From: Desulfarculaceae bacterium
Lineage (GTDB): Bacteria > Desulfobacterota > Desulfarculia > Desulfarculales > Desulfarculaceae
DNA: 64,000 bases
Assembly (NCBI GenBank): GCA_020444545.1
Contig: JAHLKT010000001.1
Coordinates: 248,001 to 312,000 of the forward strand
Direction: 5' to 3'
Below, piece after piece: positions 14,321 to 23,826 of the stretch (its first letter is position 1; each line of letters opens with the position of its first letter). The notes under the pieces are model-generated. The model did not search any database and was not told the origin of the DNA. It was given only the letters and a program-made list of their open reading frames with translations. The position numbers and the translations under genes were made by a program.

Positions 14321-15097
14321 ATGGCCGGCCCACCGATCCTGTACCGCGTGGAGGACCAGATCGCCTGGATCTCCATCAACCAGCCCGAAAAGATGAACCG
14401 CCTCGACTTCGCCAACATGCGCGAGCTGGCCCGGTGCGTGGACAAGGCGGACCAGGACCCGGGGGTGCGGGTGATCGTCATCTCCGGCGAGGGGGGCAAG
14501 GCCTTCTGCGCCGGGGGCGACATCGGCGACTTCGGGGCCGAGTCGGTCTTGGCCGGCAAGGAGAACCTCCAGGGCTACGCGGACCTGTGCCTGGTGTTCA
14601 ACCGCATCACCACCCCCTCCATCGCCATGATCAGCGGCTACGCCCTGGCCGGGGGCTGCGGCCTGGCCATGCTGCCCCACCTCTCCATCGCCACCTACGA
14701 CTCGGTGTTCGGGGTGCCGGAGATAAAGATCGGGGTGTGGCCCATGATGGTCATGGCCATCCTCTTCCGCACCGTGGGGCGCAAGAAGGGCCTGGAGCTG
14801 ATCTGCACCGGCGAGCGCATCGACGCCCGCGAGGCCCTGCGCATCGGCATGATCAACCAGGTGACCTCCCGCGGTGAGCTCTTGGAGACCACCCTGGCCC
14901 TGGCCAACCAGCTCAAGGGCCTGAGCCGCTCCATCATGAGCCTGGGCCTGGAGGCCTTCAACCACATCGGCGACCTGGAGTACACCAAGGCCATCTCCTA
15001 TTTGCGCAACATGGTGGTGCTGCTCAGCGAGACCACCGACTCCATCGAGGGCCGCAAGGCATTCTTTGAAAAGCGTAAACCGGTCTGGAAGGACTAG
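14321..15097 (+). CDS. Enoyl-CoA hydratase/isomerase family protein
   Basis: 258 aa, normal length for a crotonase-fold subunit. The two oxyanion-hole segments are visible: AFCAGGDIGDFG near residue 63 and GYALAGGCGLAM near residue 106, the second carrying the Gly that stabilises the thioester enolate. Members hydrate enoyl-CoA in beta-oxidation or act as isomerases or hydrolases on other acyl-CoAs; the second catalytic Glu region reads VPEIKIGVWP, common in the family. GGGGAG precedes the ATG. It has its own promoter and appears monocistronic, so the exact substrate is open. Confidence 0.87.
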   Translation: MAGPPILYRVEDQIAWISINQPEKMNRLDFANMRELARCVDKADQDPGVRVIVISGEGGKAFCAGGDIGDFGAESVLAGKENLQGYADLCLVFNRITTPSIAMISGYALAGGCGLAMLPHLSIATYDSVFGVPEIKIGVWPMMVMAILFRTVGRKKGLELICTGERIDAREALRIGMINQVTSRGELLETTLALANQLKGLSRSIMSLGLEAFNHIGDLEYTKAISYLRNMVVLLSETTDSIEGRKAFFEKRKPVWKD

Positions 15098-15323: not shown

Positions 15324-15376
15324 CTATGGGAACAGAGAAGATAAGCTTCCCGATTGCAGGGCAGAAAGGAATTATC

Positions 15377-15709
15377 ATGGTCGAAGTAACCCCCGCGGCC
15401 AGTGAGGCCATCCAGAGCTTTATGAAGGAAAAGGGGTTGGACCAGCCGCTCAGGGTCTTCTTGCAGTCCGGCGGCTGAGGCGGTCCTTCCCTGCGCTTGG
15501 TTCTGGACGAACCAAAAGACAATGACGACAAGTACGAGGTTGACGGCCTGACCTACCTCATCGATAAGGAACTGTCCCAGTCCAGCGGCAAAGTGACCGT
15601 GGACTTCGTGGACAACGGCTGGCAACAGGGCTTCTCCGTGAACGCGGAAAACCCCCTGGGCAGCGGCGCGAGCTGCTCCACCAGCGGATGCAGCGGCAGC
15701 TGCTCCTAG
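15377..15709 (+). CDS. HesB/IscA-like selenoprotein (UGA-encoded selenocysteine at residue 34)
   Basis: Read through one in-frame TGA (15476-15478), the frame gives 110 aa: MVEVTPAASEAIQSFMKEKG at the start, VFLQSGG-U-GGPSLRLVLDEP in the middle, and a tail with Cys100, Cys105 and Cys109 (the last stretch being CSTSGCSGSC). A-type Fe-S carriers of the HesB/IscA family have a metal-binding Cys exactly where the TGA falls, after the GG. A SECIS-like hairpin follows the TGA at the expected distance. AAGGA six bases before the ATG supports the start, and a strong terminator follows the TAG. HesB-like selenoproteins are a recognised bacterial family. The alternative, a nonsense-mutated pseudogene, is less likely because the rest of the frame is intact and the position is exact. 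Confidence 0.86.
15476..15515 (+). promoter_or_regulatory. UGA codon with bacterial SECIS-like hairpin
   Basis: TGA at 15476-15478 is followed by a perfect 7-bp stem, TTGGTTC (15497-15503) and GAACCAA (15509-15515), with a 5-base loop TGGAC. The loop lies about 26 bases after the UGA and has G as its second base, which fits the known bacterial SECIS rules (short stem, small apical loop with an early G, loop about 16-37 nt downstream). SelB would bind it to deliver Sec-tRNA. Confidence 0.8.
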
Positions 15710-15728: not shown

Positions 15729-15761
15729 CGGGGACGGGCGCTTGCCCGTCCCCGTTTTTTT
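15729..15761 (+). terminator. Rho-independent terminator after the selenoprotein gene
   Basis: An 11-bp perfect stem (CGGGGACGGGC with GCCCGTCCCCG) with loop GCTT is followed by seven T. Confidence 0.95.
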
Positions 15762-15778: not shown

Positions 15779-16243
15779 CTAGGCGGGTTTGAGCGCGGCC
15801 AGCTGGGCGCGCAGCTTGGCCGCCGGGGGGCCCGCTTTTTCCAAGGCTCCGTCGATGGCCGCCAGGCAGGATTTGACCACCGGGTTCAGGGGGCGGCTGC
15901 GCCCCAGGGCGGCCTTGAGGGTGGCGATGTCCACTTTGAGGTCCGCGTTGGCCGCCGGGCCCAGGTCCAGCCCGGCCCCGAGGATGCGCTCCAGAAGCTG
16001 CTCCAGGTCCGGGGCCTTCTCCGCCCCCTCGGCCCCGGCCAGCTCCTCGCCGCCCTTGGCGGTCAGGCGCACCGCGCCGCTGAGGCTGGCCATCTCCAGA
16101 TAGCCCATCTCCATCAGCTCCACGGCCAGGTTTTCGGTGGGGGTGCGCTCCAGGCCCAGGCCCTCGCCCACGCTCCACATGTTGGCCTTGTCGCCGGCCG
16201 CGGCCACGGCCTTGAGGAATTCCAGCTTGGTATTGTCGTCCAT
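15779..16243 (-). CDS. Hypothetical protein with winged-helix-like N-terminus
   Basis: 154 aa from MDDNTKLEFLKAV (ATG at 16243, preceded by GGGAGG). Residues ~8-70 (AAAGDKANMWSVGEGLGLER, then a second helical segment ending VRLTAKGGEEL) look like a winged-helix DNA-binding module of the MarR/ArsR type. The rest is an Ala/Leu-rich helical region that could mediate dimerisation. I do not recognise a named family. It converges on the selenoprotein gene and is divergent from the radical SAM gene at 16384, so it could regulate that operon; this is a guess from position. An ATG further upstream (16297) has poorer context. Confidence 0.6.
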   Translation of the reverse strand: MDDNTKLEFLKAVAAAGDKANMWSVGEGLGLERTPTENLAVELMEMGYLEMASLSGAVRLTAKGGEELAGAEGAEKAPDLEQLLERILGAGLDLGPAANADLKVDIATLKAALGRSRPLNPVVKSCLAAIDGALEKAGPPAAKLRAQLAALKPA

Positions 16244-16383
16244 GGGCCCTCCCGGCCTGGGGCGCGCGGCAGGCGCGCTGGAAACCAATCCTGACACGCC
16301 GGGGCAGCCGGGTCAAGGGCGCGGGATTGTGCTATATTTGGCCCAACTCTGATTACTGGGCGTAACCAAAGGATAATTTTAGC

Positions 16384-18120
16384 TTGGCCTCATCCAACTG
16401 GCCCCTGGTGGAGCATCATCAACGCCTCCTGGCCCAGGAGACCGGATCGGTCTGCTCCGACCCCGGCGGCCGCCTGAACGTGGCCCTGATCTTCCCCAAC
16501 ACCTACCAGGTGGCCATGGCCAACCTGGGCCTGCACACCGTCTACCGCATCATCAATGCGCGGCCCGACGCCCTGTGCGAGCGGGCTTTCCTGCCCGGCC
16601 GGGCCGAGGAGCCGCTCTACGCCAAGACCGGGGCGCCGCTGCTCACCCTGGAGTCCTCGCGGCCGGTGGCCTCCTTCGACCTGGTGCTGGCCAGCCTGTG
16701 CTTTGAAAACGACGCGCCCAACTTCGTAAAAATGCTGGACCACGCCGGCCTGGGCACCCGGGCGGCGCATCGGCGCGGCCCCCTGGTCATCGCGGGCGGG
16801 GTGGCGGCCATGCTCAACCCCGAGCCCCTGGCCGAGGTGGTGGACGCCTTCTTGCTCGGCGAGGCCGAGGTGGTGCTCACGCCCTTCCTGGAGGCCCTGG
16901 AGCGCCTGCCCGGCGGCACCCGCGCCGAGACCCTGGCCTGGCTGAACCGCGAGGTGGTGGGCTTCTACGCGCCTTCGCTCTACGAAGTCGCCTACCTCCC
17001 CGACGGCACCCTGCAAGACGTGACCCCCGCGTCCGGCCTGCCCGCGCGCATCGCGGCCCCCAAGTACCTGGGCCCGGCCTCGGGTCTGGCCCGCAGCGTC
17101 ATCTCCGCGCCCGGGGTGGAGTTCGGCGACATGACCCTCATGGAGGTGGGGCGGGGCTGCGGCCATGGTTGCCGCTTCTGCGCCGCCGGGCACGTGTACC
17201 GCCCGCCCCGCTTGGGCGCGGGGCCGGAGTTCAGCCAGCGCGCCCTGGCCGTGGCCGCCGAGGGCGGCAAGCTGGGCCTGGTCTCGGCCGCGGTGAGCGA
17301 CATCGAGGGCGTGGAGGGCCTGGCCTCGGACATCGTGGCCGCGGGCGGCTCGCTGTCGGTGTCGAGCTTGCGCGCCGACCGCCTGACTCCGGGCCTGGCC
17401 GAGGCCCTGGCCGCCAGCCGCCACCAGACCGTGGCCCTGGCCCCGGAGGCGGGCAGCGAGCGCCTCAGGCGGGTGATAAACAAGCACCTCAACGAGGCCG
17501 AGTTGGCCCGCGCGGTGGAAACGCTCATCAACGCGGGGGTGCCCAATCTGCGCCTCTACTTCATGGTGGGCCTGCCCGGCGAGACCGACCAGGACATCGA
17601 GGAGCTCATCGCCCTGGTGGGGCGGGTGCGCTCCCAGGTGGTCAGCTTCTCACGGGCCAAGGGGCACCTGGGGCGGGTCACCGCCAGCCTCAGCGCCTTT
17701 GTGCCCAAGCCCTGGACCCCCTTCCAGTGGGAGGCCATGGCCCCGCTCAAGCTGATAGCCCAGCGCATGAAGCGCATCAAAAAGGCGCTTTCCCCCGGGG
17801 CCAACCTCAAGGTGACCAGCGACGTGCCCAAGTTCGCCCGCTTGCAGGCGGTGCTGGCCCGGGGCGACCGCCGCATCACCCCGCTCCTGGAGGTGCTGGC
17901 CCGGGGCGAGTCCCTGGAGCGGGCCTATGTGGAAGCCGGGGTGGACCCGGAGTTCTACGCCCACCGGGAGCGGGGCCGGGACGAGGCCTTCCCCTGGGAG
18001 ATTGTTGACCACCGGGTGAGCCGGGACTATCTTTGGGCCGAGGCGGCGCGGGCCCGCCGCGAAGCCCAGAGCCCGCCCTGCGCGCCCGAGACCTGCCGCC
18101 GTTGCGGCGCCTGCTCCTGA
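16384..18120 (+). CDS. TIGR03960-type B12-binding-like radical SAM protein
   Basis: 578 aa from a TTG start (AAAGGA ten bases upstream; no in-frame ATG nearby). The N-terminal ~200 residues resemble the B12-binding-like region of this family (LNVALIFPNTYQVAMANLGL). The radical SAM cluster motif is CGHGCRFC near residue 260, with GRGCGHGC coordinating the [4Fe-4S] and SAM. The tail CRRCGACS is a second Cys group typical of the family. Members are widespread in anaerobes, often with TIGR03936 partners, and their reaction is not established. It begins a run with DUF6178 and menG, with only 6 bp to the next gene. Confidence 0.85.
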   Translation: MASSNWPLVEHHQRLLAQETGSVCSDPGGRLNVALIFPNTYQVAMANLGLHTVYRIINARPDALCERAFLPGRAEEPLYAKTGAPLLTLESSRPVASFDLVLASLCFENDAPNFVKMLDHAGLGTRAAHRRGPLVIAGGVAAMLNPEPLAEVVDAFLLGEAEVVLTPFLEALERLPGGTRAETLAWLNREVVGFYAPSLYEVAYLPDGTLQDVTPASGLPARIAAPKYLGPASGLARSVISAPGVEFGDMTLMEVGRGCGHGCRFCAAGHVYRPPRLGAGPEFSQRALAVAAEGGKLGLVSAAVSDIEGVEGLASDIVAAGGSLSVSSLRADRLTPGLAEALAASRHQTVALAPEAGSERLRRVINKHLNEAELARAVETLINAGVPNLRLYFMVGLPGETDQDIEELIALVGRVRSQVVSFSRAKGHLGRVTASLSAFVPKPWTPFQWEAMAPLKLIAQRMKRIKKALSPGANLKVTSDVPKFARLQAVLARGDRRITPLLEVLARGESLERAYVEAGVDPEFYAHRERGRDEAFPWEIVDHRVSRDYLWAEAARARREAQSPPCAPETCRRCGACS

Positions 18121-23166: not shown

Positions 23167-23826
23167 TCAGACCGCCGCTCCCTGGGCCCGGTCCAGCAGG
23201 CGCCGCGCGTTGGTGAAGCACTGCTCCACCTGCTCCGGCTCCAGCCCGGCGTTGAGGCCGACCTTGAGAGCGAAGGCGTGATCAATGAGGTCGCGGGGGG
23301 CATGGGCGTCGGTGTTGATGACCAGCGAGGCCCCGGCGGCCAGGCCCAGACGGGCCACCCGGCCGTTGCCCAGGCTGTGCCCGCCCCGGGCGCTTATCTC
23401 CAGCATGACGCCTTTTTCGGCGGCCAGGGCGCATTCCTCCGGGGTGATGAGCCCAGGGTGGGCCAGCACGTCCACCCCGGCCTCGAGCGCCGCGCGGTTG
23501 GTGCCCGGCGCCACCGGCTCCACCGGGCTCTCGCCATGCACCACCACGATCTGGGCCCCCAGGGCGCGGGCCCTCTGGGTCCAGGGCCCGATGAGCGCGG
23601 GCGGCAAATGGGTCAGCTCCACCCCGGCGATTATGCGCATGGCGTGCTGCTCGTCCAGAGCGCGGGCGGCGGCCAGGAGCGCGGGCAGGGCGGTCTCCAA
23701 ATTGCTCATGTCCGCGTGGTCGGTGAAGGCCAGGCCCTCCAGGCCCAGGACCGAAGCCCGCTGGGCCAGCTCCGAGGGCAAGAGCTCGCCGTCGCTGAAC
23801 AGGGTGTGGGTGTGCAGATCGATCAC
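23167..23826 (-). CDS. PHP-domain phosphoesterase
   Basis: 219 aa. The metal motif MIDLHTHTLFSDGE (residues 1-14) with LAFTDHADMSN and GVELTH are the signature histidines of the PHP fold, used by histidinol-phosphate phosphatases and nucleic-acid exonucleases. NTDAHAPRD near the C-terminus supplies the last metal ligands. Length and the DAH motif fit small stand-alone PHP phosphoesterases; the substrate is unknown. It lies with the genes at 22300 and 23854 on the minus strand, separated by short gaps, likely one transcript. Confidence 0.83.
   Translation of the reverse strand: MIDLHTHTLFSDGELLPSELAQRASVLGLEGLAFTDHADMSNLETALPALLAAARALDEQHAMRIIAGVELTHLPPALIGPWTQRARALGAQIVVVHGESPVEPVAPGTNRAALEAGVDVLAHPGLITPEECALAAEKGVMLEISARGGHSLGNGRVARLGLAAGASLVINTDAHAPRDLIDHAFALKVGLNAGLEPEQVEQCFTNARRLLDRAQGAAV

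Follow-up and report, generated by a model that had tools for sequence, protein, structure and literature searches.

Computational evidence for a HesB/IscA-like selenoprotein gene of the NF038090 subfamily in a Desulfarculaceae genome

HesB-like selenoproteins constitute a catalogued family with members in several deltaproteobacteria, Desulfovibrio and Syntrophobacter among them, and a Cys homologue from Desulfitobacterium retains what may be the remnant of a SECIS-like structure (PMC1794560). The proteins, with the motif UxGP, are included in a 2026 review (PMC13188914), and mutagenesis together with 75Se labelling identified a HesB-like selenoprotein in Methanococcus maripaludis; nitrogen fixation was unimpaired in its disruption mutant and the function was called unclear (PMC11097638). 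Here, we describe a gene of this type from a Desulfarculaceae bacterium, located in a 64,000-nucleotide stretch of DNA (the window), with its features collected in Table 1. The gene belongs to this already described family, which is common in the phylum; it is ordinary rather than new, and was rightly recognized in an earlier note on the same DNA.

Table 1. Features of the selenoprotein locus, in window coordinates.
Feature	Position	Strand	Basis
Shine-Dalgarno-like AAGGA, 6 nt 5' of the ATG	15366..15370	+	sequence
HesB/IscA-like selenoprotein gene, 110 aa with Sec34	15377..15709	+	translation, family profiles, relatives, alignment, dN/dS, structure comparison
UGA within the frame, decoded as selenocysteine; corresponds to the first cluster-ligand Cys of IscA	15476..15478	+	sequence, relatives, alignment
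Putative bacterial SECIS hairpin, 7 bp, loop UGGAC, inside the coding sequence	15497..15515	+	folding, comparative conservation
Cys-rich C-terminal tail SCSTSGCSGSCS, where A-type carriers have C-terminal Cys ligands; low model confidence	15671..15706	+	translation, alignment, structure model
Intrinsic-terminator-like inverted repeat and T run	15730..15761	+	sequence, by eye

Reading frame, hairpin and selenocysteine machinery

The frame opens at the ATG at 15377 and extends over 110 codons to the TAG at 15707-15709, with the TGA at codon 34 as its sole interruption (context LQSGG-U-GGPSLRL), yielding the read-through product MVEVTPAASEAIQSFMKEKGLDQPLRVFLQSGG-U-GGPSLRLVLDEPKD...GSGASCSTSGCSGSCS. 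AGGA-type sites are present 5' of the ATG in most relatives as well, and just 3' of the gene a GC-rich inverted repeat, GGGGACGGGC/GCCCGTCCCC (15730-15753, by eye), is followed by a T run. The earlier note had outlined this arrangement of start, ribosome site, terminator and lone TGA at residue 34, and every coordinate checked was accurate. Indeed, a plain ORF search of the locus returned only a TTG-initiated fragment of 70 aa (15497-15709), the product that the note had anticipated from an ordinary gene caller, and naive annotation would truncate the gene. The gene can hence be called hidden as far as naive gene callers are concerned, but not otherwise, as a dedicated NCBI model, NF038090, exists and proteins of this kind are established (PMC1794560, PMC13188914). 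A codon-usage scan of the window for further recoded TGA codons highlighted two places only, at 23169 and 23856 on the minus strand, both of which look like adjacent same-frame genes.

The hairpin reported after the UGA, with 7 bp, the loop TGGAC and a spacing of about 18 bases, is present and folds as claimed (TTGGTTC-TGGAC-GAACCAA); its stem begins 18 nt past the UGA and its loop 25 nt past it. In single-sequence folding its energy is unexceptional relative to shuffles (z about -0.6 to +0.8), and a synonymous recoding test of the folding energy was flat, with no signal. For the peptide LVLDEPK under the local codon usage, the probability of a 7-bp stem at this site with Watson-Crick pairs throughout is 1.9e-5, a figure that reflects a window codon usage disfavouring GTT, CCA and TTG; some stem of 7 bp or more, with wobble allowed and roughly bacterial SECIS geometry, occurs somewhere in the region in 5% of recodings. 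It is comparative conservation, not folding energy, that settles the reality of this putative SECIS element. Of 23 Sec genes, 22 have all five inner pairs of the stem intact, as opposed to 0 of 9 Cys homologues, so that the SECIS-like feature is kept with Sec and lost with Cys. The loop reads UGGAY, congruent with a bacterial SECIS-type stem-loop with an early G in the loop. Furthermore, at one pair a compensatory exchange of T-A for C-G has taken place on both sides of the stem in 5 sequences, with a Val/Ala change on one side and a synonymous change of a Glu codon on the other, and the covariation cell count for this pair was reached by 0 of 500 shuffles; most of the other pairs are held fixed by coding constraint, which limits covariation to this one. 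An Rfam scan placed no RNA family over the hairpin, and its sub-threshold ylbH match in the terminator region, on the opposite strand, was taken as chance. Separately, a Cys copy adjoining a Sec copy at L056:5582-5890 retains 6 of the 7 SECIS stem pairs, and looks like a SECIS remnant following a recent Sec-to-Cys change.

The source genome (4.38 Mb, estimated 100% complete) harbors the entire selA/selB/selC/selD set: SelA (610 bits), SelB (398 bits), SelD (379 bits) and a tRNA-Sec with the anticodon TCA (73 bits). A lack of selA, selB and tRNA-Sec would, according to the earlier note, have spoken against a selenoprotein. The SelD gene (L048; G000:C1:335187-336113) itself encodes a selenoprotein, the U of its UxxK motif (UAAK) being specified by an in-frame TGA, and thus provides independent support for UGA decoding in this genome.

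Relatives, fold and genomic surroundings

Among 60 genomes, ranging from genus to class, a match to the family model was recovered in 57 and exceeded the cut-off in 24, with exactly one TGA in most of the above-cut-off matches. The TGA occupies the equivalent of codon 34 in 20 relatives besides the window gene, with Cys in the remaining members, and wherever an extracted relative contains a TGA it is at this codon. Such alternation of Sec and Cys among homologues is as expected where a bacterial selenoprotein has its UGA codon, and the alignment called for by the earlier note, in which a lack of both residues would count against the proposal, revealed Sec or Cys here in the close homologues. 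In a sample of the phylum, NF038090 is above cut-off in 130 of 297 genomes, and most of the matches listed from it possess one TGA, the codon position having been examined within the class only. The nearest named records in a single-protein scan are metagenome-assembled genomes of Desulfarculaceae and Desulfarculus as well as the cultured Dethiosulfatarculus sandiegensis, which likewise has the gene. Strong purifying selection acts on the sequence 3' of the UGA: against the nearest relative, dN/dS is 0.047 on the 5' side of the UGA and 0.016 on the 3' side, where comparison with other relatives gives 0.13-0.25, and with such low values the downstream half is therefore translated. As side observations, one genome of the same class carries a tandem pair of Sec-type HesB genes (L055:984-1301 and 1792-2109; G053:C443), and a family member from a distant genus of the phylum has two in-frame TGA codons (G258:C66:233-529).

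With U34 read as Cys for family scoring, the protein reaches 120.1 bits against NF038090 (IscA_HesB_Se, NCBIfam 'IscA/HesB family protein', curated cut-off 85), spanning positions 1-100 of the 101 of the model, and the read-through protein is also above the cut-off of PF01521. Scores fall below the cut-offs for TIGR01911 (HesB_rel_seleno; 40.7 vs 66.35 bits) and for the TIGR02011, TIGR01997 and ErpA models (44.2 vs 150.6, 40.2 vs 136.2 and 33.5 vs 117 bits, respectively). An AlphaFold2 model generated from nine relatives (mean pLDDT 82) has its best structural matches in the crystal structures of IscA and SufA (1r94, E 2.9e-8, Foldseek). In sequence alignment, the E. coli IscA counterpart of residue 34 is the conserved Cys in the 'GCSG' motif, so the TGA is indeed located where the earlier note had placed it, at the first cluster-binding Cys of A-type carriers. 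At the other end of the protein, a looser Cys-rich tail stands in place of the canonical C-terminal Cys-Gly-Cys. This tail, the site of two further would-be ligands, is modelled with pLDDT <50; several of the C-terminal Cys are retained in nearly all relatives. Relative to the three-ligand HesB fold, then, the fold is present, the first ligand position is Sec, and the C-terminal Cys are in a low-confidence tail.

The gene stands alone, flanked by an enoyl-CoA hydratase gene (14321-15097) on one side and a convergent gene (15779-16297, minus strand) on the other, with a radical SAM gene (16384-18120) beyond the latter, and at this locus no Fe-S assembly genes are in operon with it. The genus and other genera of the family share the order HesB, 15779-16297-type gene, radical SAM. 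The middle gene, without a Pfam match, sits between the HesB and radical SAM genes across the family. Several relatives have a Cys copy in tandem 3' of the Sec gene; this tandem copy is absent from the present genome, which has a more distant Cys paralogue at C1:851883-852197. A whole-genome search with PF01521 gave no match, yet missed the window gene itself, hence this absence is uninformative and TIGR00049 was used instead, identifying as A-type carriers the window Sec gene and one Cys paralogue, none further. NifU/IscU-type scaffolds are present in the genome. The SufBD core was not detected there, a result to be taken with caution as the same search format with PF01521 missed a known gene.

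Decoding, possible function and comparison with described carriers

On the computed evidence, the window almost certainly holds a genuine selenoprotein gene of the NF038090 subfamily, with Sec inserted at the UGA via SelB and the local hairpin. That the TGA is instead a real stop, in a pseudogene, through a sequencing error or between two short genes, is what the in-frame TGA alone and the 70-aa fragment from an ordinary ORF finder would suggest; this is effectively refuted by the same-codon TGA in 20 other genomes, the strong purifying selection past it, the retained hairpin and the complete Sec machinery. Decoding of the UGA as a different amino acid, through an altered code or a suppressor, is without specific support and is rejected as well, considering the TCA anticodon of the tRNA-Sec, the complete SelA/SelB/SelD, and the TGA/Cys alternation among homologues that is the usual signature of selenocysteine. 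Recoding and an IscA-like fold are strongly supported by computation, while a ligand role of Sec34 and a carrier function are what we infer from homology. In the proposed mechanism, judging from the conserved parts, SelB with Sec-tRNA(UCA) would recognize the stem-loop just past the UGA and insert Sec at residue 34. The product would fold like IscA and most likely serve as an A-type carrier: Sec34 and the C-terminal cysteines would bind an Fe-S cluster or iron between them, to be passed on to anaerobic Fe-S enzymes, with the Cys paralogue elsewhere in the genome alongside this protein.

Our best guess for this protein is an A-type Fe-S carrier in which Sec is a ligand, and the Sec-ligated Fe-S or metal carrier put forward in the earlier note is plausible; taking recoding and role jointly, we consider a functional NF038090 selenoprotein acting as a Sec-ligand A-type carrier probable. 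The main rival is a real IscA-fold selenoprotein without Fe-S carrier function, where Sec34 and the Cys tail would act in thiol/selenol redox chemistry, or as a binding site for a different metal or a selenium species. Sec is generally a redox residue, mostly used for redox chemistry. Moreover, the C-terminus departs from the CGC motif, the gene is not embedded in an Fe-S assembly operon, and the role of HesB-like selenoproteins is called unclear (PMC11097638, PMC13188914). We nevertheless regard such a non-carrier role as unlikely: Sec occupies the cluster-ligand position, with the C-terminal Cys preserved as described, and the Cys paralogue is the only other A-type carrier detected in the genome. 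Returning to the carrier, it is conceivable, albeit only tentatively proposed, that the general A-type carrier of the lineage has split into Sec and Cys forms, without conventional IscA/ErpA/SufA; if so, a selenium-ligated Fe-S cluster carrier would serve central anaerobic metabolism. The locus adds a well-supported example to the HesB-like selenoproteins, and raises the question of why Sec replaces the cluster-ligand Cys in so many genomes of the phylum.

The window protein matches NF038090 over its full length and above the cut-off, and shares the motif GG-U-[GS]GPSL with the other TGA-containing members found; compared with most relatives, its C-terminal tail is slightly longer, with nothing else notable. 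The catalogued HesB-like selenoprotein (TIGR01911, UxGP; PMC1794560, PMC13188914), known from deltaproteobacteria, is of the same superfamily and has the same motif, here UGGP, and the window protein is assigned to the sister model NF038090 because it scores under the TIGR01911 cut-off. Finally, while it deviates from the IscA/ErpA/SufA carriers (PDB 1r94, 1s98, 1x0g, 2d2a) in having Sec for Cys, an altered C-terminal CGC and scores under the TIGR02011, TIGR01997 and ErpA cut-offs, it shares with them the fold and the position of the first ligand Cys.
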